Shown here: positions 2-22,995 of the stretch, piece by piece
How positions within the stretch are numbered: the first letter of the stretch is position 1
Layout: every line of letters begins with the position of its first letter
IMG/VR virus record: IMGVR_UViG_3300017724_000067
Location: 1 to 26,621 of that record
Direction: 5' to 3' (one strand)
Length of the DNA: 26,621 bases
DNA from: a virus
Notes under the pieces: model-generated
What the model saw: only the letters and a program-made list of their open reading frames with translations
Database searches by the model: none
What the model was told of the DNA's origin: nothing
Made by a program: the position numbers and the translations under genes

Positions 2-2116
2 ACTAAAGAAGAAAAAGTGAACGAAGGTAAGTACGATGGTATGTTAGATGTTATCGAAGATTTAGTTTCTAAAGCTAGTTCGTTTATGGATGTTGGTAAT
101 CAACTAAAGAAACACAAAGTTAATTATTCTTTTTCTACATCAATGATGCCAATATACAGACTTGATAAACTACCTATCGCTATTGTAAATAAAAGATATG
201 TTGATAAAGCTGATAGAGAAGTTGGTGATATCGCAATCGGTTTGATGGAATCGATGAAGATGAATGAAGCTAAGTACGATATCGGAATGGCTCGTAAAGG
301 AAACGGATTGACTGTTTACAACAAAGCTGAAGAAGAAAAAGGTGATTACAAAAATGTAGCTCACATTGATAACAAAGGTAAGATTAAATATTACGATAAA
401 AAAGTTCCATCTAAAATTAAAAAACAAATCGAAGCTGAGGCTAAGAAGATGATGGAAATAAAAATAGAGGGAACTATGAAACTAACAGACTTATTAAATG
501 AAGATGTTTACGTTAAAAATAAAAAGACTGGGAACACTTACGCTGTAAAAAACGCTGACCCATCTAAACACGTACCACCATCAAAGGATGATATAGCAAA
601 AGCTAAATCAGATGCAAAAGATGAACCAAACAGAGAACCTTCAAAAGATGAACCTAAAAAGGATGAACCTAAAAATGATGGACCTAAAGTTGAATTATCC
701 AAAGATTTTGATAAGTTATATTATGCACAGGATATCGAAGGTGATGTTGAAAAACTTGAAGGTAAAATATCTGATGAAGATTATAAAAAAATGATGGAAA
801 AGCTAGAGGATTTAAGTTATGCACAACAGGATGCTGAAGAAGCTGAAAACTACGATTCTCCAGAAGAAGCAGAAGAAGATGGTTTAGATGTAAGACCAAA
901 AGAAGAATTGGAAAAGATGGCAAGTGATTTAAAAGACATGATTAGACAAGCCAATGGTACTCCAAAAGAAGAACCTAAGAGTGAACCAAAAAAGGATGAA
1001 CCTAAAAGTGAACCAAAACGAGTACCTTTAGATAAAAATGATAGTTACTACATCAAAACTGCAGTAGAAAAAAGAATGGGACCAGCAGCGTTTAGAGCAC
1101 TTAGTTATGGGGATATGCAAAAAGCTTATAATGATGAAATGAAATCTAGAGGTTGGGAAAAGGGTGATGATGGAGAGTGGACTAAACCTGCAAACGAATC
1201 ATCTAAAAGAAAAATAAAAGAATCAAAGGGAAATTCAATGAAATTAAAAGATTTACTAAACGAATCATTTGAAAAGGGTAAAGTTTATTCAAACCCATTT
1301 CACACTCCATTCGTTAAAGAAAATGATATGGATAGAGATGAAGAATCTAATGAAATGACTAACGAACAAAAGATGGCATTTTTAGAAGCAGTTAAAGCAT
1401 ACAAATCATTTGGTGAAACTGTATATAGAAATGAAGGATTGGCTGAAGTTTATGAATCAATCAAAGGGTTAGTAGAATCAGCTGGTAAAAATATGGTTAA
1501 AGAAACTGAAGGTTCGTTTGATGGTATTACAGTTGGTAGACACGTAAAAAGAATGAATGAATCATTTAAAATCTTTGAGAAAACTTTAAGAGAAGTTGGA
1601 ACATTACAACAAAGATTAGAATCAACTTATGATGAGATTGGTGAAGTATTAGGAAAGTATTACGAAATCAATGAATTAGAAGAAGGTAATGAGTTCGGAG
1701 CTGCTAGAGCAAAAGCAATCGCAAATGGTGATAGTGAATTTTCAGTAGATGGTAAAAAATATCCTGTTAAAGGTGTTGATAAAGATGATAAAGAGAACGC
1801 AAAAAAGTTCGCTAACGAATCTAAATCAATAAAACTTACTTCTATGTTAAATGAATCATTCGGATATGGTGAACTACCATCAGAAAAACTAATGAAGATG
1901 AAAGTATCAGCTAAAGATATGCTGGATTCAGTTAAAAACAAAACAACTAAGAAAATTGTTGAAGGTTACTCAACTGAAGAAAAAAGAATCGTATTATTAG
2001 CAGTTAGAAAATTAATGAAGTATAAGAACATTGATATCAACTTAGCAGCACAATATGTAGTAGGTGCAGCTGAAGAATTGAAATATGATATTGATAAGGG
2101 TAGGGTAAAAAAATAA
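2..2116 (+). CDS. Modular head-internal/prohead-associated protein, 5'-truncated by the window edge
   Basis: The frame is open from base 2, so the gene probably begins upstream; the first possible start inside the window is GTG at 17 (residue 1 here), without a clear Shine-Dalgarno site. The protein (about 700 residues) is rich in Lys, Glu and Asp and has no membrane segment. It looks like a string of modules: 4-80; 85-150; a DEPK-repeat linker region (about 200-345); a helical region (418-590) and a C-terminal helical domain (615-699). Module borders carry short tags: MNE-A (82-85), MKLTDLLNE-D (154-163), MKLKDLLNE-S (408-417), MNE-S (513-516), IKLTSMLNE-S (605-614). These resemble T4 gp21 protease sites (hydrophobic-x-Glu, then Ala/Ser/Gly) and the roughly 10-residue capsid-targeting sequences of T4 internal proteins. 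Location upstream of the scaffold and capsid genes fits a head role. The function is inferred; the family is not named. Confidence 0.7.
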   Translation, partial: TKEEKVNEGKYDGMLDVIEDLVSKASSFMDVGNQLKKHKVNYSFSTSMMPIYRLDKLPIAIVNKRYVDKADREVGDIAIGLMESMKMNEAKYDIGMARKGNGLTVYNKAEEEKGDYKNVAHIDNKGKIKYYDKKVPSKIKKQIEAEAKKMMEIKIEGTMKLTDLLNEDVYVKNKKTGNTYAVKNADPSKHVPPSKDDIAKAKSDAKDEPNREPSKDEPKKDEPKNDGPKVELSKDFDKLYYAQDIEGDVEKLEGKISDEDYKKMMEKLEDLSYAQQDAEEAENYDSPEEAEEDGLDVRPKEELEKMASDLKDMIRQANGTPKEEPKSEPKKDEPKSEPKRVPLDKNDSYYIKTAVEKRMGPAAFRALSYGDMQKAYNDEMKSRGWEKGDDGEWTKPANESSKRKIKESKGNSMKLKDLLNESFEKGKVYSNPFHTPFVKENDMDRDEESNEMTNEQKMAFLEAVKAYKSFGETVYRNEGLAEVYESIKGLVESAGKNMVKETEGSFDGITVGRHVKRMNESFKIFEKTLREVGTLQQRLESTYDEIGEVLGKYYEINELEEGNEFGAARAKAIANGDSEFSVDGKKYPVKGVDKDDKENAKKFANESKSIKLTSMLNESFGYGELPSEKLMKMKVSAKDMLDSVKNKTTKKIVEGYSTEEKRIVLLAVRKLMKYKNIDINLAAQYVVGAAEELKYDIDKGRVKK
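467..478 (+). promoter_or_regulatory. Internal ribosome-binding site and ATG within the modular head protein
   Basis: GAGGG at 467-471 lies four bases before an in-frame ATG at 476, which opens the tag MKLTDLLNE. It could start a shorter nested product beginning with its own capsid-targeting-like sequence, or be a relic of gene fusion. Whether it is used is unknown. Confidence 0.35.
1225..1240 (+). promoter_or_regulatory. Internal ribosome-binding site and ATG before the second MKLKDLLNE tag
   Basis: AAAGGGA at 1225-1231 is six bases before an in-frame ATG at 1238 that opens MKLKDLLNES. The spacing is close to ideal. This is the second case in the same ORF in which an SD-like site, an ATG and the tag occur together, which favours nested starts or fused former genes over chance. 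Confidence 0.4.
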
Positions 2117-3090
2117 TGGATTACTCAGATATATTACAAGACATTTCGGTTGATTTATCTTTTATGATAAAGAAACATTTAAAGAATATCAAAAAGTTAG
2201 ATTCTAAAAAGCAAAAAGCTTTTGGAAAACTCTTTGTTGATATGAAGCAAGGTGTTGATGATTTATCTGAAGGAGTAAACGAATCAGTAAACGAAGCTAA
2301 CTATAATACCAAACAAGATGCTATGAACGCATATATGAATGGTAAAGTAAGTGCAAAAGAATTAGATAAGATTGCAAAAAATGATTTTAAATCATCAGTA
2401 GCAACTAAAAAAGAACTACAAAACTTTCTTGATAGTGGGTATATGAAATCCTTAATGGCTAACACCTATGGATTAAAAGTTCCAGCTATGGAAAAGAAAG
2501 TAAAAGAGTTGATGAGGTTTGCAGAAGGAACATTAAAAGAAGATATTCAATACTTCGAATCACTTGATGAAGCCAAATCTATGGATATGAAAAAAAGATT
2601 AAAGGTTTACGATAAACTCAAAAAAGGTGATAAGATTACGATTAAGTATGGTTCATCAATGAGGGGTGGAGTTGAAAATGAATTTGTAGTATCCAAAGGA
2701 AAAACTTTAGTTGGTAAACAAAAAGTAGAAAGAATTATTCTACAAAATCCAGCGAATCCAAAAGGTGTTAAGTATTATCTATACCAAAGAAACGGAAACG
2801 TAACTATGGCTATTGGTGATATGGCGGCTACTATCGAAGATATGCACGAATCAATAAACGAAGCTAAAGAACCTGAAGTAATTACTCAATTAAGAAAAAT
2901 CGTAAAAGATAAACAAAACGATTCTATTAAAGATACTAAGAGTGGTAAGAAGGTAAGAGTTGATATGAATTCAGCAAACCTAATGGTTCAAGTATACGAT
3001 GCACTTAAAAAACAATCTAATAAAGATAAGTTTGTTAAGAGTGGTATAGTAATGATGGGACATACAGCTTATAAACTTCTTAAAAAATAA
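2116..3090 (+). CDS. Modular head-associated protein with protease-site-like module borders
   Basis: The ATG shares one base with the stop of the preceding gene (TAATG), so translation is probably coupled; AAGGG and TAGGG lie just upstream. The 324 residues are basic and soluble, with no membrane segment. Four blocks can be seen: a helical N-terminus (1-53), a block at 61-145, a beta-rich block around 160-240 (KKGDKITIKYGSS, then VGKQKVERI and GVKYYLYQRNG), and a C-terminal block at 251-324. Each border carries a hydrophobic-Asn/Asp-Glu-Ala/Ser tag: VNE-S (54-57), VNE-A (58-61), LDE-A (150-153), INE-A (247-250), as in the upstream protein. Such sites match the T4 gp21 prohead protease preference. 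I infer a protein packaged into, or cleaved in, the prohead. The modules look familiar from marine T4-like phages, but I cannot give a named family. Confidence 0.7.
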   Translation: MDYSDILQDISVDLSFMIKKHLKNIKKLDSKKQKAFGKLFVDMKQGVDDLSEGVNESVNEANYNTKQDAMNAYMNGKVSAKELDKIAKNDFKSSVATKKELQNFLDSGYMKSLMANTYGLKVPAMEKKVKELMRFAEGTLKEDIQYFESLDEAKSMDMKKRLKVYDKLKKGDKITIKYGSSMRGGVENEFVVSKGKTLVGKQKVERIILQNPANPKGVKYYLYQRNGNVTMAIGDMAATIEDMHESINEAKEPEVITQLRKIVKDKQNDSIKDTKSGKKVRVDMNSANLMVQVYDALKKQSNKDKFVKSGIVMMGHTAYKLLKK

Positions 3091-3109: not shown

Positions 3110-3118
3110 ATATTTATA
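3110..3118 (+). promoter_or_regulatory. Putative late promoter box ATATTTATA upstream of bS21
   Basis: One of thirteen ATATTTATA-type boxes in the window. It lies 49 bases before the bS21 ATG but directly before a terminator-like hairpin that starts within two bases of it, so a transcript starting here would open with, or end at, the hairpin. Confidence 0.45.
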
Positions 3119-3154
3119 TACACCTACACGATATTGTGATAGGTGTATTTTTTT
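3118..3154 (+). terminator. Intrinsic terminator hairpin between the modular head gene and bS21
   Basis: ACACCTACAC (3120-3129) pairs with GTGATAGGTGT (3136-3146) with one bulged A and a six-base loop, followed by seven T at 3148-3154. It ends the upstream unit, and it also lies in the would-be 5' leader of bS21. Confidence 0.7.
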
Positions 3155-3166
3155 AAATAACATTAT

Positions 3167-3427
3167 ATGCAAGATAATAGACAAAAAAAACCTTACAAAA
3201 AAATTAGACGTGAAGATATGGAAGTACCGGGTTGCTTTACAGCCGTAAAAGTAGTTAACGGAAATATTGAATTAGCGTTGAAAGCATTCAAAAGAAAAAT
3301 TAAAGATAGTGGAAAGATTGAAGAACTCAAAGATAGGAAAGAGTACATCAAACCTTCAGCTGTCAAAAGAAAAAAAATGCAACAAGCGGTGAGAGCAGAG
3401 TACAGACGTAGAATGCTCGAAAATTAA
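3167..3427 (+). CDS. rpsU: Phage-encoded 30S ribosomal protein bS21
   Basis: 86 residues, strongly basic. Residues 26-82 have the bS21 pattern: VKVVNGNIELALKAFKRK, then a Lys/Glu-rich helix and YIKPSAVKRKK, ending in an Arg-rich helix. Cellular bS21 is about 65-75 residues; the extra length here is a basic N-terminal arm (1-20). bS21 sits on the 30S platform near the 3' end of 16S rRNA (the anti-Shine-Dalgarno region) and affects initiation. Viral copies are known; a role in biasing host ribosomes toward phage mRNA is a hypothesis. No Shine-Dalgarno sequence precedes the ATG (TAAATAACATTAT), unlike most neighbours. An alternative ATG at 3218 would give a more usual 69-residue protein but also lacks a good SD. 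It stands alone, between the head genes and the scaffold gene. Confidence 0.88.
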   Translation: MQDNRQKKPYKKIRREDMEVPGCFTAVKVVNGNIELALKAFKRKIKDSGKIEELKDRKEYIKPSAVKRKKMQQAVRAEYRRRMLEN

Positions 3428-3452: not shown

Positions 3453-3581
3453 CATTTATAGTACACTATTTATTGCAGATAAAAATATCATCTCCCAATA
3501 GGTGATTAAATATATTAGTAAATAATATTCTATTAAGATTCTCAATAATCTTATTTCCAAAAACAATTTAGGAGAACAATT

Positions 3582-4661
3582 ATGGCAAATAGAAAAGATT
3601 TGTTATCTGAAGCTATTGCTGATGCTAAAGCCGTTAAAGAAACTGCTCTTGCAAATGCAAAACTCGCTTTAGAAGAGGCGTTCACCCCAAAACTACAATC
3701 AATGATTTCTGCGAAATTAGCTGAAGAAGCTGATGAAGAGAACGATGATATGGAAAATGAAGAATTAGATTCTTCAGATTTAGGTTCAGGCGATAACGCA
3801 GAACCATCTGATGATGCTAGTGATTCATCTGAAGTTGAAAACGACAATGAGTTGAGTGAAGAAGAAGGTGAAGAAGAAAAAGAAGTTAAAGATGAAAATG
3901 AAATGACTGATGAAAATGATGACATGGACAATGAAGTGTACGAAGAAGAAGAATCTGATGACATGGAAAATGAAATGGCACATGAAGCTGATGACATGGA
4001 CAATGAAGGTGAAGAAGATGATGAGTTAGACTTAGAATCTGTAATCGCTGAATTAGAAGCTGAAATGGACAGTGCTGATGAAACTTACGAATCTGAAGAA
4101 GAAATGGCATCTGATGATGACATGGAAAATGAAGAAGAAGAAGCTGGAATGAGTAATGAAGAAGAAGCTGAAATGGATGCTGAAGAAGATGAAGATGAAA
4201 TCGATTTAGACGAAGTTATTAAAACTTTAAAAGAGATGGAAGATGATTCTGAAAAAGCAGATGAAGGTGAAAAAGTTGAAGAAGAAGAAGAAGTTGATTC
4301 TGTAAAAGAAGAATTAGAAGAAGCATATTCAACAATTGAAAGTTTAAGAACAACTATCAATGAAGTGAATTTGTTAAACGCTAAACTACTTTACACTAAC
4401 AAACTATTCAGAACTTTTGATTTAAACGAAGGACAGAAAGTAAAAGTACTTGAAAACTTCGATAGAACTTCATCAGTAAGAGAAGTTAAATTAGTATTTT
4501 CAACTTTAGCAGAAAACTTAAATGTCGCTAAAAAGAAAAGAACAGTTGTTAAAGAAGGTTATGCTTCAAAAGCAACAAAAAGTTCCGCACCAAAGAAAGA
4601 AATTATTTCTGAGGGCAATGAATTATCGGCTAGATGGAAAAAACTAGCAGGTTTAAAATAA
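3582..4661 (+). CDS. 22: Prohead core scaffolding protein, T4 gp22-like
   Basis: 359 residues, extremely acidic. The N-terminus (MANRKDLLSEAIADAKAVKE, then about 30 more residues) and the C-terminal helical part (LFRTFDLNEGQKVKVLENF, about 280-310) resemble gp22 scaffolds of marine T4-like phages; T4 gp22 is about 270 residues. The middle (52-235) is Glu/Asp-rich low complexity with DDM(E/D)NE repeated about five times and two related helices, DELDLESVIAELEAEM and DEIDLDEVIKTLKEME. LSE-A at residues 8-11 resembles a gp21 protease site; T4 gp22 is destroyed by gp21 during maturation. The start has a strong AGGAGA site. The gene directly precedes the capsid gene (28-base gap) with no box between, so the two are probably co-transcribed. 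A degenerate promoter box (TATTTATT, 3467-3474) and small hairpins lie upstream. Confidence 0.85.
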   Translation: MANRKDLLSEAIADAKAVKETALANAKLALEEAFTPKLQSMISAKLAEEADEENDDMENEELDSSDLGSGDNAEPSDDASDSSEVENDNELSEEEGEEEKEVKDENEMTDENDDMDNEVYEEEESDDMENEMAHEADDMDNEGEEDDELDLESVIAELEAEMDSADETYESEEEMASDDDMENEEEEAGMSNEEEAEMDAEEDEDEIDLDEVIKTLKEMEDDSEKADEGEKVEEEEEVDSVKEELEEAYSTIESLRTTINEVNLLNAKLLYTNKLFRTFDLNEGQKVKVLENFDRTSSVREVKLVFSTLAENLNVAKKKRTVVKEGYASKATKSSAPKKEIISEGNELSARWKKLAGLK

Positions 4662-4689
4662 TTAATAAGATTAATAACGGAGAAAAAAA

Positions 4690-6294
4690 ATGGATTTAAA
4701 AAACATTTTAAATGAAGGTTCTTCCCACCAAGCAAGATTGTCAGAAACGACAAGAGCTCTTGCAGGAAAATGGGAAAAAACAGGTCTTCTTGAAGGTATT
4801 AGCAACGAAGTTGAAAAAGCTGGTGTTGCAACTCTTTTAGAAAACCAAGCTAAGCAATTAGTAAAAGAAGCTTCTTCTACTGGAACATCAGCAAACTCAG
4901 AAGAGTGGGCAGGTGTAGCTTTACCATTAGTAAGAAGAATATTTAGTGAAATCGTAGCAAAAGATTTCGTATCAGTACAACCAATGAACTTACCATCTGG
5001 TCTAGTATTTTATCTAGATTTCAAATATGGTACGGCTCAGCCAGGTTTCGCAACAGGCGCTGGAAAAGATTCACAAAATGATTCTGTATTCGGTGTAACT
5101 GAAACTACAGCTGACCCATCAGGTGGTTTATATGGTGCTGGTAGATTTGGATACTCAATCAATGATGTAAGTACAGTTGACCAAACATTAGCCGCTTCAG
5201 CAGCTGCTGATAAATTCGTAACTGGTTCTTTATCATCTGATGCATCAATTTATGATTATGATAGCGCTTTCGGAGCAGACTTAACAGGTAAATTTTCTGT
5301 TGCAGTTCCTACAGCTTCTATGGCTGGATTTGATGAAAAAGGTATTAGAGGATTTAGAGTAGTTGCAACTGGTATTACAGACCAATACCCACAATTTACT
5401 AAATTAGTTGGTGGTGATGTAGTATTCGTAGTAAAAGGAGCAGTTGCTGCAGCTAACAAACTACAAGCTAAATATCATGCACAACCATCTGATATTTCAA
5501 GAGGTGATTTTGAAGATAAAGGTTCTGATTTAGATATTCCTGAATTGAACGTAGAGATGAAATCTCTTCCTATTGTTGCTAAGACTAGAAAGTTAAAAGC
5601 ACAATGGACGCCTGAATTCGCACAGGATTTAAACGCTTACCATTCAATTGATGCAGAAGCTGAATTAACTTCTATGTTATCAGAATACATTTCGCAAGAA
5701 ATCGATTTTGAAATTTTAGATATGTTAATGCAAGATGCTAAATCTGAAGGATTCTGGTCAGCTAGAGCTGGTAGAATTTGGAATGGTAGTGCATTTGCAA
5801 ATATGGATGCTACTGAATATGGCGCATCTGCTTACAATCAGGGAGCATGGTTCCAGACTTTAGGAACTGTAATCGCTGGTGTATCTAACTCTATTCACCA
5901 AAAAACATTAAGAGGTGGGGCTAATTTCTTAGTAGTATCTCCTGATGTTGCAACAATCATTGAATCTATCCCAGGATACGCTTCTTCAGCGGATAATGGT
6001 GATGCTCAATTTGCATTCGGTGTATCAAAAGTTGGTTCATTAAATAGTAGATTCCAAGTTTATAAGAATCCTTACATGAAAGAGAACGTAATATTAATGG
6101 GTTACAGAGGAACACAATTCCTTGAAACTGGAGCAGTATATGCACCATATATTCCGTTAATTATGACTCCTCTTGTATATGACCCGAAAAACTTCACTCC
6201 TAGAAAAGGTGTAATGACACGTTACGCTAAGAAAATGCTAAGAGGTGAGTTCTACGGTAAAGTATATGTAGATTCATTGAACAGAATTCAGTAA
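4690..6294 (+). CDS. 23: Major capsid protein, T4 gp23-like
   Basis: 534 residues (T4 gp23: 521), forming the capsid hexamers. Conserved gp23 features include WAGVALPLVRRIF (72-84), VQPMNLPSGLVFYLDFKYG, the KLKAQWTPEFAQDLNAYHSI region, the IDFEILDMLMQDAKS region, and the C-terminal PLVYDPKNFTPRKGVMTRYA. The likely maturation cleavage is VKE-A at Glu60-Ala61, matching the gp21 consensus and the T4 cleavage at Glu65. The N-terminus MDLKNILNEG is itself a variant of the MKLKDLLNE tag of the upstream modular proteins. GGAGA lies upstream with good spacing. The gene follows the scaffold closely and is followed by a strong terminator, consistent with the highest-level virion protein. Confidence in identity is very high. 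Confidence 0.97.
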   Translation: MDLKNILNEGSSHQARLSETTRALAGKWEKTGLLEGISNEVEKAGVATLLENQAKQLVKEASSTGTSANSEEWAGVALPLVRRIFSEIVAKDFVSVQPMNLPSGLVFYLDFKYGTAQPGFATGAGKDSQNDSVFGVTETTADPSGGLYGAGRFGYSINDVSTVDQTLAASAAADKFVTGSLSSDASIYDYDSAFGADLTGKFSVAVPTASMAGFDEKGIRGFRVVATGITDQYPQFTKLVGGDVVFVVKGAVAAANKLQAKYHAQPSDISRGDFEDKGSDLDIPELNVEMKSLPIVAKTRKLKAQWTPEFAQDLNAYHSIDAEAELTSMLSEYISQEIDFEILDMLMQDAKSEGFWSARAGRIWNGSAFANMDATEYGASAYNQGAWFQTLGTVIAGVSNSIHQKTLRGGANFLVVSPDVATIIESIPGYASSADNGDAQFAFGVSKVGSLNSRFQVYKNPYMKENVILMGYRGTQFLETGAVYAPYIPLIMTPLVYDPKNFTPRKGVMTRYAKKMLRGEFYGKVYVDSLNRIQ

Positions 6295-6323: not shown

Positions 6324-6350
6324 AAGGGTGGCTTCGGTCACCCTTTTTTT
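6324..6350 (+). terminator. Strong intrinsic terminator after the capsid gene
   Basis: A nine-pair stem AAGGGTGGC / GTCACCCTT (one G-U) closed by a UUCG tetraloop (6333-6336), followed by a run of seven T to 6350. A C(UUCG)G loop is exceptionally stable. Confidence 0.9.
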
Positions 6351-6405: not shown

Positions 6406-7065
6406 ATGGCTGAAAACAAAGACAAAACTCCACCAAAAGGTAATGTGAGATTTTCGATATCTCTATCGGAAGAACAGAAAAAGGCGAAAGCACAAATTTT
6501 AAATCATCCCTTCAATTTTGTAATAGGTAAGGCAGGTAGTGGTAAAACACTGTTGGCTTGTCAAATAGGATTGGATATGTTTTTTAAAAGAAAAGTAAAT
6601 AAAATTGTAATTACACGACCAACAGTATCAAATGAGGATAACGGATTCTTACCAGGTTCATTAGAAGAAAAAATGGAACCTTGGTTAGTTCCCATTAGAG
6701 CTAATATGAGAAAAGTTTACAACAAACCAAACATATTACAGAAGATGGAAAGTGATGAATCTATTGAATTAGTATCATTATCACATTTTAGAGGAAGAAC
6801 TTTTGATAACTCCATATGTATTGTCGATGAGTTTCAAAATCTAACTAAACAACAATTGTTGATGGTATTAGGTAGGGTAGGAAAAGGTTCTACTATGATA
6901 CTTTGTGGTGATAAGCAACAAATTGATTTGAAATTCAACAATGATTCGGCAGTACATGAAGTTCCTAAGTTAAAAGGTTCGGATTATGTTTATGATATTT
7001 GTTTAAAAGATAACCATAGACATGAATCTTTAGATGAAATTTTAACATTACTAACCGATTACTAA
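6406..7065 (+). CDS. phoH: PhoH-like P-loop ATPase
   Basis: 219 residues. Walker A is GKAGSGKT (41-48) and Walker B is SICIVDEFQN (136-145), with the PhoH-type TRPTVSNEDNGFLPG stretch (70-84) and a CGDKQQIDL sensor region (167-175). PhoH proteins are cytoplasmic ATPases, some linked to phosphate starvation and RNA metabolism; their role in phages is unresolved although they are very common in marine phages. I place the start at ATG 6406, which has an AAAGG Shine-Dalgarno site; the frame opens further upstream (6328), but that start would lie inside the terminator stem and add an atypical hydrophobic stretch. Unusually it sits between the capsid gene and the fibre block, with its own promoter-like box, suggesting late expression. 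Confidence 0.93.
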   Translation: MAENKDKTPPKGNVRFSISLSEEQKKAKAQILNHPFNFVIGKAGSGKTLLACQIGLDMFFKRKVNKIVITRPTVSNEDNGFLPGSLEEKMEPWLVPIRANMRKVYNKPNILQKMESDESIELVSLSHFRGRTFDNSICIVDEFQNLTKQQLLMVLGRVGKGSTMILCGDKQQIDLKFNNDSAVHEVPKLKGSDYVYDICLKDNHRHESLDEILTLLTDY

Positions 7066-12996: not shown

Positions 12997-14778
12997 ATGG
13001 CAGAATGGAAAAAGGTAATAGTCTCCGGCTCAACAGCAGCATTAGCTGCAGCGAACGTAGATGGAACTGTAACCGCTAACGCGTTTAGTGGTGATGGTTC
13101 AAACTTGACAAATGTACCCGCCGGTTCGATAAATATCGAATCATTTACAAATGGTACAGGAATTACGGTAGCCAGTACAGATAAACTTATCTTATCAGAT
13201 GCTGGAACAGAAAAATATATTAACGTATCTCAGTTACCATTTACAACTAATTCATTTAGAGGTATAAGAGTAACGAATGGTGAAACAGAAACTTCATTAG
13301 AAAGTTCAGAAGCCCTAAACATTACAGCAGGAACTAATGTTAGTCTTTCGGAATCAGAAGGTGTAGTAACAATCACTTCTACGGATACTAACACAACTTA
13401 TTCAGTAGGTGATGGTGGATTAACTCAAAAGAATTTTACAACCACATTAAAAAATAAGTTAGATGGAATTGCAGCATCGGCTAATAATTATGCATTACCT
13501 TTAGCAGCATCGGGTACAAGAGGTGGTGCTAAAATTGGATATACTGAAAATGGTAAAAACTATCCTGTAGAATTATCATCAGAAAAAATGTATGTAAATG
13601 TTCCTTGGAGCAACACAACTTATTCAGTAGGTGATGGTGGGTTATCACAAAAGAACTTTACCACTACTTTAAAATCTAAATTAGATGGTATTGCTACATC
13701 AGCAAACAATTACTCATTTTCAAATAGTATTGATGGTGGTGAAGGTGTAGCAGTTGATAGCGGTGGAACACAAGATTTCAGAGCTGGAACTAATGTAACT
13801 CTAACACAAGCAGATGGTGGTGCAATTACAATTGCATCAACAGATACTAACACAACTTATTCAGTTGGTGCTGGTGGTTTAACTCAAGAAAACTTCACTA
13901 CTACTCTAAAAAATAAATTAGATGGAATTGCAGCATCGGCTAATAACTATTCATTACCAGAAGCAACAGCGACTGTGCGAGGTGGTATTGAATTATTCAG
14001 TAATACAGACCAATCAGTAGCAGCTAACACAGTATCAGCAACTGCTGGTAGAACTTATGGTTTACAATTAAACTCAGCTGGACAAGCGGTAGTTAACGTT
14101 CCGTGGACTAATACACAAAGTACTAGAGGTGTAAGAACAGAAAATGGTGAAACTGGAACTGCACTAGGTACATCTGAAACATTAACCCTTAAAGCAGGAA
14201 CAAATGTTAGTATTTCAGAATCAGAAGGAACAGTAACATTTAGTTCAACTGATACTAATACTACATATTCGGTAGGAGATGGTGGATTAACTCAAAATAA
14301 CTTTACAAATGCTGACCATAGTAAATTAAATGGTATTGCGGCTAGTGCAAATAACTACTCACTTACAATCGCTGATGTTAAGAGTGTACTTGGTGGTGGG
14401 ATGCCATCTAACGCATTAACAATTGGTGATACTAATGATACAATTACTATTGCTGGTAATTTAGATGTAAATGGTACAACTACTACTATTGATACAACTA
14501 ACTTAGCAGTTACAGATAAATTCATCGAATTAAACAGAGGTGCAACAACAGAAGGTGATGGTGGTATTGTAATTAATGGTGCTACTAATAAATCATTTGG
14601 TTGGGATGATTCCAACGATAGATGGGCGTTTGATTTTACTGGAGCAACCGCAGGACAAACTACTATCGATACTGATGCATTCGTAGCAGCTGTAGCTAAG
14701 GTTAAAACAGATGTAAACTACCAAAAAAATGGAAACCTTCACGTAGATGGTACAGATATTTGGATTTATGTTGAATAA
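12997..14778 (+). CDS. Repeat-rich tail fibre protein
   Basis: 593 residues, AGAGGA ribosome-binding site. The N-terminus MAEWKKVIVSGSTAAL is nearly the same as that of the 1458-residue fibre (MPNWKKVIVSGSSAEL), suggesting a shared attachment fold. The shaft holds four copies of a unit reading TTYSVGDGGLTQ.NFTT..K.KLDGIAASANNY (near 13390, 13616, 13852 and 14260), one copy of the KIGYTENGKNYPVELSSEKM module (13530-13614), also found four times in the giant fibre, and AGTNVSLSESEG-type strands. Near the C-terminus (about 485-545) is the fibre domain ITIAGNLDVNGTTTTIDTTN with the following FIELNRG and FGWDDSNDRWAF, seen in many marine phage fibres. The C-terminus is DIWIYVE. No chaperone domain or enzyme motif was seen. 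Host-surface binding is inferred. Confidence 0.78.
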   Translation: MAEWKKVIVSGSTAALAAANVDGTVTANAFSGDGSNLTNVPAGSINIESFTNGTGITVASTDKLILSDAGTEKYINVSQLPFTTNSFRGIRVTNGETETSLESSEALNITAGTNVSLSESEGVVTITSTDTNTTYSVGDGGLTQKNFTTTLKNKLDGIAASANNYALPLAASGTRGGAKIGYTENGKNYPVELSSEKMYVNVPWSNTTYSVGDGGLSQKNFTTTLKSKLDGIATSANNYSFSNSIDGGEGVAVDSGGTQDFRAGTNVTLTQADGGAITIASTDTNTTYSVGAGGLTQENFTTTLKNKLDGIAASANNYSLPEATATVRGGIELFSNTDQSVAANTVSATAGRTYGLQLNSAGQAVVNVPWTNTQSTRGVRTENGETGTALGTSETLTLKAGTNVSISESEGTVTFSSTDTNTTYSVGDGGLTQNNFTNADHSKLNGIAASANNYSLTIADVKSVLGGGMPSNALTIGDTNDTITIAGNLDVNGTTTTIDTTNLAVTDKFIELNRGATTEGDGGIVINGATNKSFGWDDSNDRWAFDFTGATAGQTTIDTDAFVAAVAKVKTDVNYQKNGNLHVDGTDIWIYVE

Positions 14779-15153: not shown

Positions 15154-18100
15154 ATGCCAAATTGGAAAAAAGTAATCGTTAGTGGTTCATCTGCAGAACT
15201 AACAACACTAAAACTAACAGGAACTTCAGGACAATCTTCTGAAGCAACTTCACTAATGATTAATAGTAGTGGGGTAGTGGGAACTAGAGAATTAGGTTCA
15301 AACGCATTTAATTCAAACACATATAATAACTATTCATTACCATTAGGTTCATCATCAACAAGAGGTGGATTTAAAATTGGATACACAGAGAGTGGTAAAA
15401 ATTATCCTGTTGAGATATCCTCTGAAAAAATGTACGTTAACGTACCTTGGACTGATACCAATACTGATACAAACACTTTTAGAGCCGTAAGAACAACAAA
15501 TGGTGAAACTGGAACTACATTAGGTTCAACTGAAACTTTACACCTAGTGGCAGGAACTAATGTTAGTCTTTCAGAATCAGAAGGTGAAGTAACAATATCT
15601 TCAACTGATACAAACACCAACACAACGTATTCAGCAGGAAATGGAATTGGATTAAGTGGAACTACATTCTCGGTATCAGCAGGAACATCTTTAACTCAAA
15701 ATTCATCTGGTTTAAGTGTAACTTCAAATGGAATTGGAGCAACTCAACTTAACGTATCAGGAAATGGAACAACTGCACAATTCCTTAGAAGTGATGCAGA
15801 TGGTTCATTCACTTGGGCAACTCCAACCAATACCACTTATTCAACGGCAACTTCTTCTACTTTAGGTTTAGTTAAAATTGGATATTCAGAGAATGGAAAG
15901 AACTATCCTGTAGAATTATCAAGTGGTAAAATGTACGTTAACGTACCTTGGAGTGATACAAATACTGATACTAACACTCAACTATCAACTGAAGAAGTAA
16001 GAGAAGCATTCTCAGCAGGTTCTAATGTAACAATTGAAGATGGTGTAATTAGTTCTACAGATACCAATACAGATACAAATACACAAAATCGATATTCAAC
16101 TTCAGTTGTATCTTCAAGTGGTATTAAATTAAGATTAAGTGGTACAGGTCATAATGGTTCAACAAGTGATGATGTAAAATTTGTTGGTGCAGGGGCAACT
16201 ACTGTAAGTAGAACAGATGCAAGTACCATAACTATAACATCAACCGATACTAATACAAACACAACGTATTCAGCAGGAACTGGATTATCATTAAGTGGTA
16301 CTACATTCAGCTTATCAGGTGATACATTTGATAATGAGGGAACATATAGTAAATTAAGAGCACAAGCAACTACTGCTGGTGATGTTGGTTTAGGTAGTGT
16401 AACAAACGAATCGAAAGCAACAATGTTTTCATCAGCAGCACTAACTGGAAACCCAACTGCACCAACACAAGCAGCAAATAACAATTCTACTAGAATAGCA
16501 ACAACTGCATATGTACAAACAGAAATAACTGATTTAATTGGTGGAGCTCCAGGCGCATTAGATACTCTTAATGAACTAGCCGCAGCTATCGATGATGATG
16601 CTTCATACGCAAGTGGGATTACAACATCATTAGGTACTAAACTACCAAAGAGTGGTGGTACTATGACTGGTGCTATTGCGATGGGTAATTTTAATATCAC
16701 AGGTGTTAATGCATTCACATTTAACGACCCCGGTCCAAACGAAGGAATAAGTTGGAGTGGTGGTAATATAAAAATATATGAATCACCAAACGATTTAACA
16801 ACAAACACCGCAGGTAACTTACAAATCGTATATGGTTCAACTCGAAGATTGACTGTTGATAGTACGGGAATTAATGTAAATGGTAATGCTAATATATCTG
16901 GTACTATAACAAACGCTACTTGGAATGGTGATGTTATTGCAGATTCATATTTATCAACAAATACGGCTCATCTAAGTGGAACACAAACATTTTCAGGTAA
17001 CAAAACCTTCAGCGGTACTTTAACAGCAAGTGGTGGTGTTAAATTTACAGGATTAGATTCTAGTGAAGAATCAAAAGCTTTAGTGATTAATAGTTCTGGT
17101 GTTGTAGGAACGCGTGGTTTGGGTACTGGAGCATTCACATCTGCATACTCTCTACCTGCTGGTTCATCATCAACAAGAGGTGGATTCAAAATTGGATATT
17201 CTGAAAATGGAAAGAATTACCCAGTTGAGGTATCTTCAGAAAAAATGTATGTAAATGTTCCGTGGAGTGATACCAATACAGATACAAATACTGTAACTCA
17301 AATTAGAAGAGATAATACAGGCACATATAGAACTGGAAATATTAATTTAGTTGGTGGAACAAACGTAACAATCTCAGAAGGTTCTGCAGGTGTATTCACA
17401 ATCACATCTACAGATACAAACACCAACACAACATATTCTGCTGGAAGTGGATTATCTCTAAGTGGAACAACCTTTTCACATAGTGATACCTCATCAGCAG
17501 GTTCATCAAATAATAGTGGTAGAACATATATCCAAGATATCACATTAGATACTTACGGACACGTTACTGGGTTATCAACTGCAACTGAAACAGTAGTTAA
17601 TACCGATACTAACACTCAGTTATCAACTTCAGAAGTTAGAGAAGCATTTTCAGCAGGTTCTAATGTAACAATTGAAGAAGGTGTAATTAGTGCAACCGAT
17701 ACTAATACAAATACTGTAACTCAAATTAGAAGAGATAATACAGGCACATATAGAACTGGAAACATCAACTTAGTTGGTGGAAGTAATGTTACAATCTCAG
17801 AAACATCAACAGGCGTATTTAATATATCATCAACAGATACAAACACCGATACAAATACTACATATTTGTTAAAAGCAATTCAATATGATGGTTCAAATAC
17901 AAATCCATATCTAAAATTAGATGCTAATAGTGGAACTGATGATTTAGTACGATTAGTTGGTAGTGGTGCAACTACAGTAACAAGAGAGAATGATGGCCAA
18001 ATCAAAATATCATCAACCGATACTAATACAAATACCACTTATTCAACGGCAACTTCTTCTACTTTAGGTTTAGTAAAAATTGGATATACTGAAAGTGGAA

Positions 18101-19530
18101 AGAATTATCCTGTAGAATTATCATCTGGTAAGATGTTTGTTAACGTTCCTTGGAGTGATACAAATACTAACACTACATATTCAGCAGGAACTGGATTATC
18201 TCTAAGTGGTACTACATTCAGTTTATCATCTACTTATGACAATTATAATGGATGGGATTTATTTGTTAATAGTATAAGTAGAGGAACAATTACATCAGGA
18301 GAAAATGTAAACTTCATCGCTGGAACAAATGTATCTTTAGGTTATTCATCTACAAACAATGCTATTACTATATCCTCAACAGATACTAACACAGATACTA
18401 ACACATTTAGAGCCGTAAGAACAACATCTGGTGAAACTGGAACTTCATTAGAGGCAAATGAAACTTTACACCTAGTGGCAGGAACTAATGTTAGTCTTTC
18501 AGAATCAGGAGGTGAAGTAACAATATCCTCAACGGATACAAACACTAACACATTTAGAAACGTAACTGCAGGTGGTAATACTTTAGGTAGTACTGAATCT
18601 TTAGATTTTATCGCTGGTTCAAACGTATCAATTTCAGAAAGTGGTGGTAATATAACAATATCCTCAACAGATACTAATACTGATACCAACACAACATATT
18701 CTGCTGGAAGTGGATTATCTCTAAGTGGAACTACATTCTCTCATACTGATACTTCATCAGCAGGTTCAGTAAATAATAGTGGTAACACAGTAATTCAAGA
18801 TGTAACATTAGATACATATGGACACGTTACTGGGTTAACATCAAAAGCATTATCAATACCATCTTCCGCAGATATTATAGGTGAATTTTCAGCAGGTGAT
18901 GGTATTGAAATTACTGATGATGGCGAAATTAGTTCTACAGTTACAAATACCAACACAACCTATTCAGCAGATGGAAACTATGGTATGACTTTAAGTGGAA
19001 CTTCGTTCCGTTTAGAAAATGATAGACGTAGAAACTCAACATCTACAGACATCTACACAGGTAACACACACGACTATACATTCTACGATGCTTCTGTAGG
19101 TATTAGATGGTATGCTGCCGGTGCAGAAGATATGAGATTAGCTAATGGTGGTACTTTACACGTTGATGGTGATGTTGTTGCTTATTCAACAACAATATCT
19201 GATGAAAGATTAAAAGATAATGTAACCACAATTGAAAATCCATTAGATAAAATCAAAGCACTTAGAGGTGTTGAGTATGATTGGAATGCAGGTAGTAGAA
19301 AAGGTAAGCGTGATTTAGGATTAATCGCACAAGAAGTAGAAAAGGTTATACCTAATATTGTGCATGAGCATGAACAACCACTCTTAAACGATGATGAAGA
19401 TGATAAAACATTATATAAAACTGTAGATTATGAAAAAATGGTAGCAGTATTAATTGAAGGTATGAAAGAACAACAATCTCAGATTGATGAATTGAAATCA
19501 GAAATTAATCAACTTAAAGGGAAAATGTAA
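15154..19530 (+). CDS. Giant modular tail fibre with C-terminal S74 intramolecular chaperone
   Basis: 1458 residues, the largest gene here. The start has AAAGGA and shares MxxWKKVIVSGS with the 593-residue fibre. The shaft consists of repeats: S(S/T)TDTNT(D/N)TNT linkers, TYSAG(T/S)GLSLSGTTF strands, AGTNVSLSES(E/G)G strands, KIGY(T/S)E(N/S)GKNYPVE modules (four copies), and two RRDNTGTYRTGNINLVGG modules. Near 430-510 is a classical fibre segment (GNPTAPTQAANNNSTRIATT, then LDTLNELAAAI). The C-terminal 110 residues are a peptidase S74 (endosialidase-type) chaperone: SDERLK with Ser1349 and Lys1354 as the expected dyad, then GVEYDWN, RDLGLIAQEVEKVIP and a terminal coiled coil. In this family the trimer folds and the chaperone is released by self-cleavage at the Ser. 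Probable host-recognition fibre. Confidence 0.92.
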   Translation: MPNWKKVIVSGSSAELTTLKLTGTSGQSSEATSLMINSSGVVGTRELGSNAFNSNTYNNYSLPLGSSSTRGGFKIGYTESGKNYPVEISSEKMYVNVPWTDTNTDTNTFRAVRTTNGETGTTLGSTETLHLVAGTNVSLSESEGEVTISSTDTNTNTTYSAGNGIGLSGTTFSVSAGTSLTQNSSGLSVTSNGIGATQLNVSGNGTTAQFLRSDADGSFTWATPTNTTYSTATSSTLGLVKIGYSENGKNYPVELSSGKMYVNVPWSDTNTDTNTQLSTEEVREAFSAGSNVTIEDGVISSTDTNTDTNTQNRYSTSVVSSSGIKLRLSGTGHNGSTSDDVKFVGAGATTVSRTDASTITITSTDTNTNTTYSAGTGLSLSGTTFSLSGDTFDNEGTYSKLRAQATTAGDVGLGSVTNESKATMFSSAALTGNPTAPTQAANNNSTRIATTAYVQTEITDLIGGAPGALDTLNELAAAIDDDASYASGITTSLGTKLPKSGGTMTGAIAMGNFNITGVNAFTFNDPGPNEGISWSGGNIKIYESPNDLTTNTAGNLQIVYGSTRRLTVDSTGINVNGNANISGTITNATWNGDVIADSYLSTNTAHLSGTQTFSGNKTFSGTLTASGGVKFTGLDSSEESKALVINSSGVVGTRGLGTGAFTSAYSLPAGSSSTRGGFKIGYSENGKNYPVEVSSEKMYVNVPWSDTNTDTNTVTQIRRDNTGTYRTGNINLVGGTNVTISEGSAGVFTITSTDTNTNTTYSAGSGLSLSGTTFSHSDTSSAGSSNNSGRTYIQDITLDTYGHVTGLSTATETVVNTDTNTQLSTSEVREAFSAGSNVTIEEGVISATDTNTNTVTQIRRDNTGTYRTGNINLVGGSNVTISETSTGVFNISSTDTNTDTNTTYLLKAIQYDGSNTNPYLKLDANSGTDDLVRLVGSGATTVTRENDGQIKISSTDTNTNTTYSTATSSTLGLVKIGYTESGKNYPVELSSGKMFVNVPWSDTNTNTTYSAGTGLSLSGTTFSLSSTYDNYNGWDLFVNSISRGTITSGENVNFIAGTNVSLGYSSTNNAITISSTDTNTDTNTFRAVRTTSGETGTSLEANETLHLVAGTNVSLSESGGEVTISSTDTNTNTFRNVTAGGNTLGSTESLDFIAGSNVSISESGGNITISSTDTNTDTNTTYSAGSGLSLSGTTFSHTDTSSAGSVNNSGNTVIQDVTLDTYGHVTGLTSKALSIPSSADIIGEFSAGDGIEITDDGEISSTVTNTNTTYSADGNYGMTLSGTSFRLENDRRRNSTSTDIYTGNTHDYTFYDASVGIRWYAAGAEDMRLANGGTLHVDGDVVAYSTTISDERLKDNVTTIENPLDKIKALRGVEYDWNAGSRKGKRDLGLIAQEVEKVIPNIVHEHEQPLLNDDEDDKTLYKTVDYEKMVAVLIEGMKEQQSQIDELKSEINQLKGKM
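15531..15580 (+). repeat. 50-bp direct repeat, copy 1 (copy 2 at 18459-18508)
   Basis: Identical 50 bases encoding ETLHLVAGTNVSLSES, nearly 3 kb apart inside the giant fibre gene and in the same frame. Recombination between the copies would delete shaft modules while keeping the frame. Confidence 0.85.
15829..15872 (+). repeat. 44-bp direct repeat, copy 1 (copy 2 at 18031-18074)
   Basis: Identical 44 bases encoding NTTYSTATSSTLGLV, both followed by a KIGY module. Offset 2202 bases, a multiple of three. Confidence 0.85.
17283..17339 (+). repeat. 57-bp direct repeat, copy 1 (copy 2 at 17706-17762)
   Basis: Identical 57 bases encoding TVTQIRRDNTGTYRTGN and flanking residues, offset 423 bases (a multiple of three). 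Similarity continues beyond the perfect block at the protein level (INLVGG(T/S)NVTISE). Confidence 0.88.
17706..17762 (+). repeat. 57-bp direct repeat, copy 2
   Basis: Second copy of the block at 17283-17339, in the same frame of the giant fibre gene. Confidence 0.88.
18031..18074 (+). repeat. 44-bp direct repeat, copy 2
   Basis: Second copy of the block at 15829-15872. Confidence 0.85.
18459..18508 (+). repeat. 50-bp direct repeat, copy 2
   Basis: Second copy of the block at 15531-15580. Confidence 0.85.
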
Positions 19531-22644: not shown

Positions 22645-22653
22645 ATATTTATA
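22645..22653 (+). promoter_or_regulatory. Putative late promoter box ATATTTATA before the coiled-coil gene
   Basis: Exact box in the same TTCTCATATTTATATA context as upstream of gp13, 43 bases before the ATG. Confidence 0.5.
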
Positions 22654-22695: not shown

Positions 22696-22995
22696 ATGGC
22701 AGAAGTAAAAGAAATTACGGAAAAACAAGTTATCAATATCGATGAAAAAGATATTGAAAGAGTTAACAAATTCAGAAGCGATTTTGCTGAGGTTACAGCA
22801 AGAATAGGTGAGGTAGAGGTAGAAAGATTGAATGCACAAATGATATTGAAAAATATTGAAGATGCTAAAGATAATCTATCTGAACAGTTTAAGTCTATGA
22901 GAAATGAAGAAGTTGCTATTACCAATGAATTCAAAGAGAAATATGGTAATGGTGAGTTCGATATTGAAAATGGAACTTTCACTCCTATCGCATAA
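22696..22995 (+). CDS. Small coiled-coil protein in the tail cluster
   Basis: 99 residues. After an 18-residue charged N-terminus comes an uninterrupted helical region (19-81) with heptad-like hydrophobic spacing, probably a coiled coil, and a short end KYGNGEFDIENGTFTP. Small proteins with this KYG.G..D...G.FTP ending occur in marine T4-like phages, to my recollection, without a function. There is no Shine-Dalgarno site (TTAAAGTT). It lies where T4 carries genes 16 and 17, between 15 and 18. It is shorter than typical small terminase subunits and I see no DNA-binding motif, so I do not call it gp16. A tail assembly or tape-measure-chaperone role is possible but unproven. Confidence 0.72.
   Translation: MAEVKEITEKQVINIDEKDIERVNKFRSDFAEVTARIGEVEVERLNAQMILKNIEDAKDNLSEQFKSMRNEEVAITNEFKEKYGNGEFDIENGTFTPIA

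Follow-up and report, generated by a model that had tools for sequence, protein, structure and literature searches.

An SD-less gene for an N-terminally extended bS21 among the SD-led late genes of T4-like phages, and its possible role in ribosomal message selection

The window analyzed here is a 26.6-kb fragment (26,621 nucleotides) of a T4-like phage from an IMG/VR record, and it carries a gp23 capsid gene. On its plus strand, an open reading frame (ORF) at positions 3167-3427 encodes a protein of 86 residues that the first-pass annotation had named as ribosomal protein bS21. Searches upheld this identification: the ORF matched Pfam PF01165 (E=2e-11; 43.7 bits against a cut-off of 27, and 46.1 bits in a second run), PHROG 21469 in a PHROG search, and 30 PDB sequences of bS21 chains from solved ribosomes (best, 1e-9); with the F. 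johnsoniae bS21 chain 7jil_z, the E-value was 1e-7. Alignment with F. johnsoniae-type bS21 delimited an N-terminal extension of about 22 residues (codons at 3167-3232) which is basic, ends in an EDMEVPG-type motif, and is absent from host bS21. Residue 54 of the window protein is Arg, not an aromatic residue. The gene lies inside a TerL-portal-protease-MCP block, on the same strand as the neighboring structural genes in both the window and its relatives. Upstream of it is a head-region gene to which no function was assigned (2116-3090, plus strand; SD energy -8.0), and downstream are a prohead core/scaffold-like gene (3582-4661, plus strand) directly before gp23 and the gp23 major capsid protein (MCP) gene itself (4690-6294, plus strand; PF07068, E=2e-76); protease, portal, and TerL genes are found further upstream in relatives. 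The scaffold-like ORF had no match in Pfam or PHROG, and it is homologous to its counterpart in relatives. The setting of bS21 among head genes had earlier been singled out as notable; it is ordinary for the clade, with bS21 positioned upstream of gp23/MCP in nearly all related loci that carry it.

Directly 5' of the bS21 start is an AU-rich leader, AAATAACATTAT (3155-3166, plus strand), without a Shine-Dalgarno (SD) site. No pairing of UUUUUUUAAAUAACAUUAUAUG with the anti-SD was found (+2.0 kcal/mol; mock 0.0), and hence the earlier claim of a missing SD was borne out; this value is not stronger than the level of about -13 kcal/mol associated with autoregulated rpsU. With phage bS21 genes more generally, G accounts for 1-7% of the leader at -12 to -8, and positions -3 to -1 are mostly TAT. 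The SD-led surroundings that had also been described stood for the most part: most other long genes of the window have AGGAG/GGAG/AGGA-type sites of about -4 to -9.5 kcal/mol, including the AGGAG of the scaffold gene (3570-3574, plus strand; -7.3 kcal/mol) and the GGAG of the MCP gene (4679-4682, plus strand; -6.6). The description failed for a second gene (22696-22995, plus strand), which is likewise SD-less (+1.6) and has its own TATTTATA box at 22646, and for the portal and TerL genes, which largely lack SDs clade-wide. Even where the surrounding locus is SD-led, just 9% of portal and 24% of TerL genes have an SD, in contrast to the capsid, scaffold, and protease genes.

Further upstream on the same strand, a TATTTATA box (3111-3118) is followed by a hairpin, UACACCUACAC-loop-GUGAUAGGUGUA (3119-3147; -13.6 kcal/mol, z=-3.5), and by a run of seven T residues (T7; 3148-3154), with the bS21 AUG left unpaired. 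The box is invariant in 12 relatives, as are the outer stem and T-run of the block ATATTTATATACACCTA-loop-TAGGTGTATTTTTTT, the loop of which is variable. The window contains 11 copies of TATTTATA (3111, 7075, 8308, 12915, 12945, 20096, 22646, 23022, 25528, 26065, and 26145), all of them plus-strand and either intergenic or at the end of a gene, where 5.1 would be expected on both strands together, and counts summed between the genes of six relatives were 67 forward and 10 reverse. T4's TATAAATA, of which TATTTATA is the reverse complement, was forward-biased in a T4 control of the same count. Judged from these motif counts and its conservation, TATTTATA is likely the T4-type late promoter of the clade and the box at 3111 that of the bS21 gene. 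If the spacing between T4 late promoters and their transcription starts applies here as well, the bS21 transcript would begin near 3124. A transcript from about this position loses most of the 5' arm, and when folded no longer has the hairpin (-5.3, z=-0.1). With T7 directly after it, the hairpin is shaped like an intrinsic terminator. Since a late start near 3124 removes it, the element resembles a terminator that would end the transcript of the upstream gene, overlapped by the late promoter of bS21, rather than a translational switch. Among 74 phage bS21 leaders, a terminator-like hairpin was seen in only 27, whereas most lack an SD. Thus, the stable hairpin noted earlier is indeed present, but the regulatory role suggested for it was unsupported, and translational regulation was rejected in favor of termination given the T7, the unpaired AUG, and the loss of the structure from a start at 3124.

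The large relatives of the window phage provide an indication of the host. The early promoter pattern TTGG-N18-21-TATATTTG, which matches the flavobacterial sigma-A box TAnnTTTG (PMC9723704), was found 17 times forward and never in reverse in genome G005, and 13 times forward and once in reverse in G004, against about 0.2 expected; G008, with a bS21 93% identical to that of the window, has two forward and none in reverse, and no copy was found in the T4 or Mosig pieces. Bacteroidota-type early promoters are present in G003, G004, G005, and G008. In the known Flavobacterium phage immuto, a gp23 relative (57%), the strict pattern TTG-N17-21-TAnnTTTG occurred once forward and three times in reverse, and CGTATATT occurred 13 times forward and twice in reverse; the strict pattern is specific but not sensitive, therefore, as it failed in a phage where CGTATATT worked. 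The many near-identical promoters of the form TTGG-N-TCGTATATTTG seen in L130-L138 (G005) and L120-L129 (G004) are of the Bacteroidota host type and could serve as a useful host marker for uncultured phages. With such promoters in the large relatives, a Bacteroidota host is suggested, and on this sequence evidence the host of the clade appears to be Bacteroidota. Mel-JY01, a member of the clade, is labeled a Microcystis phage, and in its subclade the bS21 gene is SD-led and SDs precede 14 of 56 genes at 90-130 kb, so hosts may vary within the clade. This group (L002, L260-L288) thereby places a Microcystis label inside a clade with Bacteroidota-type traits, and its host label or range may deserve a check. 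A likely Bacteroidota-type host gives meaning to the SD asymmetry of the phage bS21 gene, since in such hosts bS21 hides the anti-SD and the arrangement at rpsU is the opposite, with a strong SD.

SD use across relatives was assessed with two measures, the pairing energy with the 16S tail (cut-off of -5 or -5.5 kcal/mol) and the presence of AGGA, GGAG, GAGG, or AGGG at -16 to -5, each accompanied by a mock window further upstream; the thresholds are arbitrary and both measures agree. Genes were called by a simple ATG-only caller with a fixed start rule. The SD motif was found before 722 of 1258 nearby genes (57%; mock 50) at loci with an extended bS21 and before 58 of 767 genes (mock 47) at loci without bS21. 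The difference recurred gene by gene between bS21-bearing and bS21-less loci: 63/68 against 0/43 for MCP, 39/42 against 3/12 for the scaffold, 48/58 against 5/44 for the protease, and 18/27 against 0/25 for the neck gene. The bS21 gene itself had the motif in 12 of 96 extended-bS21 loci, of which 10 belong to the Mel-JY01 subclade and two are L232 and L245, and in the same-locus comparison it was SD-led in 5 of 72. A conserved SD in close relatives had been named beforehand as an observation that would weaken the case for the asymmetry; none was seen beyond that subclade and the two loci L232 and L245.

Every locus with a bS21 bearing at least 10 extra N-terminal residues had an SD fraction of at least 0.27 (96/96). 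Two bS21-bearing loci with less extension, L072 and L378, had SD fractions of 0.07 and 0.12, and phages with an unextended bS21 on the reverse strand had the motif on 2 of 72 structural genes. Given these exceptions, the presence of bS21 alone as the correlate was refined to that of an extended bS21, a criterion which, having been picked after the exceptions were seen, constitutes a hypothesis for new data. The extension is basic, with a median net charge of +3, and contains a PG motif in 62 of 98 cases. SD use thus tracks the N-terminally extended bS21 across relatives, as an association. The identity of residue 54 does not account for it: among 74 unique phage bS21s, this residue is Arg or Lys in 34 and Tyr or Phe in 40, and SD-led genes were found in both sets, with mean SD fractions of 0.59 and 0.50, respectively (p=0.008, confounded by ancestry). 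Loss of Tyr54 was accordingly rejected as the cause, because Y/F54 proteins also accompany SD-led genes.

When the bS21 label was placed on a capsid-protein tree (156 sequences), it changed at least six times, with four of the changes on well-supported branches. Five of the six bS21-less lineages are SD-poor, and the sixth, the L321/L374 clade, is intermediate with some SDs (18/81). Most members of this bS21-less clade (L321, L374, L359, L365, L366, and L373) have an SD on the capsid gene, an exception to the association. With four independent evolutionary contrasts on well-supported branches, a sign test gave a median p of 0.25. The association between loci is thus large but depends on a small number of independent events, the independent pairs being too few for significance.

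Stronger evidence than this association is the split between early and late genes inside genomes. Six large relatives were read in pieces, with structural and replication labels taken from BLAST comparisons to immuto and the window. The motif preceded 76 of 116 structural genes (mock 9) and 14 of 62 genes of replication and metabolism (mock 6), for a Fisher p of 5e-8 with genes treated as independent; the early genes of these genomes are, by the latter count, SD-poor rather than SD-free. When genes were sorted by promoter, SDs were found on 50 of 105 lying no more than 150 nt from a TATTTATA box, compared to 9 of 87 at such a distance from a Bacteroidota-type early promoter (p=2e-8, again with genes treated as independent). 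The controls had no such split: SDs were found on 19 of 29 early and 14 of 19 late genes of T4, and on 16 of 26 early and 13 of 17 late genes of the pelagiphage Mosig, the bS21 gene of which has an SD of -17.7. Immuto, in which no bS21 was detected, is SD-free everywhere. The earlier suggestion that initiation on the bS21 message follows another route than on SD-led late mRNAs fits these findings and now has comparative support, from the mostly SD-less early genes, the SD-less relatives that lack bS21, and the tracking of SD use with the extended protein.

A basis for such a route is known from F. johnsoniae, where bS21, bS18, and bS6 form a pocket for the 16S tail that keeps the anti-SD hidden, and where loss of bS21 or its Y54A replacement leads to more translation of mRNA with a strong SD, as possessed by rpsU (PMC9976891). 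Starting from what was observed directly, namely the sequences, the SD statistics, the promoter classes, and the association with the extended bS21, we infer ribosome incorporation, anti-SD exposure, timing, and competition as follows. Host ribosomes with their own bS21 would hide the anti-SD, and for that reason the early genes of the phage, together with its bS21 gene, would have to be readable without an SD; ribosomes in host mode would translate these SD-less mRNAs. With late transcription from TATTTATA promoters, phage bS21 would accumulate and replace or compete with host bS21 on 30S subunits. Entry into 30S subunits is proposed by analogy with the bS21 of pelagiphage HTVC008M, which enters E. 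coli ribosomes (PMC6375957). The extended phage protein would then leave the anti-SD in the 3' tail of 16S rRNA available for pairing with messages, and SD-led mRNAs for capsid, scaffold, and tail proteins could win over the SD-less mRNAs of the host and the early genes. Being SD-less, the bS21 message would itself be disfavored as the switch proceeds, which would limit bS21 in the self-limiting manner suggested earlier. That an extended phage bS21 switches Bacteroidota ribosomes from SD-less to SD-led late mRNAs in this manner is given a probability of roughly 0.6. The broader formulation, in which a viral ribosomal protein turns SD-blind message selection by host ribosomes into SD-dependent selection during infection and the phage genome uses two matching initiation codes, the early genes and the switch gene SD-less and the late genes SD-led, may with about equal chance prove right or wrong.

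Several observations count against the proposed switch: residue 54 is aromatic in 40 of the 74 phage bS21s, the bS21-less L321/L374 clade has SDs, the independent contrasts are few, and the early genes are not SD-free. A further difficulty is that the late phage SDs, at about -6 to -9, are weaker than the F. johnsoniae circuit needs, where autoregulation called for an SD of exceptional strength, below about -13 kcal/mol (PMC9976891).

Some of these data would also fit a difference between hosts only, where the bS21-bearing phages infect hosts that use SDs in part, their bS21-less relatives infect Bacteroidia that do not, bS21 is a passenger, and late SDs reflect high expression. The Microcystis label of Mel-JY01, the SDs on bS21 and at 90-130 kb in its subclade, and early genes that are not wholly SD-free in bS21-bearing genomes would agree with this explanation, which is nevertheless considered unlikely: Bacteroidota-type early promoters were found in four of the large relatives, including the near relative G008, the genes behind such promoters are almost SD-free, which is not so for early genes in T4 and Mosig, phages of SD-using hosts, and Y/F54, described as unique to Bacteroidia, is present in half of the phage bS21s. 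Somewhat less probable again is that the phage depletes or inactivates host bS21, leaving bS21-less ribosomes to read the SD-led late mRNAs, and that phage bS21 has another task, e.g., holding some of the ribosomes in SD-less mode or mending initiation. F. johnsoniae ribosomes without bS21 do prefer mRNA with an rpsU-type SD, the authors of that study speculated on a phage protease acting against host bS21 (PMC9976891), and the aromatic residue 54 is retained in many phage bS21s; depletion, however, does not account for the dependence of SD use on an extended bS21, or for its loss with an absent or unextended bS21, and ribosomes without the C-terminal part of bS21 initiate worse on weak-SD mRNAs too (PMC9976891). 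Autoregulation of bS21 translation or termination by the leader hairpin, with the missing SD incidental, is very improbable in spite of a stable, conserved structure directly preceded by a promoter box, given the terminator-like T7, the unpaired AUG and preceding bases, the abolition of the hairpin by a T4-type late start, and its restriction to a minority of the mostly SD-less phage bS21 leaders.

Several elements of the proposed switch are already known, viz., phage bS21, its place among head genes and a proposed late favoring of phage mRNA (PMC9723584), its N-terminal extensions (PMC7162821), and the hidden anti-SD of Bacteroidia. The huge phages of freshwater Bacteroidetes, for which Bacteroidota hosts were predicted, also have bS21 in the head/packaging block, and the protein was proposed to enter host ribosomes late in infection (Chen et al., 2022; PMC9723584). 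Their bS21 is encoded on the strand opposite the structural genes and residue 54 is always aromatic, whereas the window has a same-strand, extended bS21 with Arg54 and SD-led late genes; loci taken to be of the former kind, judging by sequence and by a bS21 on the reverse strand, encode an unextended protein and have SDs on 2 of 72 structural genes. The autoregulation of rpsU in F. johnsoniae (McNutt et al., 2023; PMC9976891) is alike in that bS21 decides the use of the anti-SD by the 30S subunit and the presence or absence of an SD on the bS21 gene belongs to the circuit. In a set of host rpsU genes from a genome scan with Flavobacterium-type bS21, all 80 had an SD, of -18.4 to -21.6 kcal/mol, and Tyr at residue 54. 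The phage arrangement is the reverse of that of Flavobacterium, in which rpsU has an extremely strong SD and other genes have none. The pelagiphages HTVC008M and Mosig (Mizuno et al., 2019; PMC6375957) share a myovirus-encoded bS21, but Mosig differs in having both early and late genes SD-led and a very strong SD on its bS21 gene. For huge phages, rpS21 with basic/aromatic N-terminal extensions has been described, and these were proposed to help the protein bind ribosomes or help phage mRNAs to initiate (Al-Shayeb et al., 2020; PMC7162821); the SD observation in the parts of that report considered here concerns phages with S1-like proteins that lack SDs, and these parts report no link between rpS21 and SDs. 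With the bS21 homologues of Francisella (PMC9578407), ribosome protein composition is reported to govern gene expression as well, in a cellular and not a viral setting.

A search of published open-access papers did not find a link between phage bS21, its extension, and the SD use of phage genes. For the frequent carriage of bS21 by aquatic phages, the published proposals, in the portions cited here, are that phage mRNA is favored, and they name no mRNA feature on which this would act. The present work names the SD, mainly of late genes, as such a feature and ties it to the N-terminal extension. If true, the proposed switch would represent a clear case of a virus-made specialized ribosome and offer a means of switching SD use in Bacteroidota, and it could be tested in F. 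johnsoniae with existing types of reporter.

Some minor features of the window were also noted. A strong terminator hairpin, AAGGGTGGC-TTCG-GTCACCCTT with a T-run, is located 3' of the capsid gene (6324-6345). The GTG called as the start of the PhoH gene (6328) falls within this hairpin, which makes the ATG at 6406 more probable as the start codon. Several proteins of the head region, encoded at 17-2116 and from 4690 in the window and also in L374, L321, and L072, start with or repeat a KLKDLLNE- or ELKQLIREE-like motif, possibly a capsid-targeting or processing signal. Large tail-fiber-like proteins with many TNTTYSVGDGGLTQKNFTTTLKNKLDGIA-type repeats are encoded at 12997-14778 and 15154-19530, the latter of which seems to end with a chaperone-like domain.
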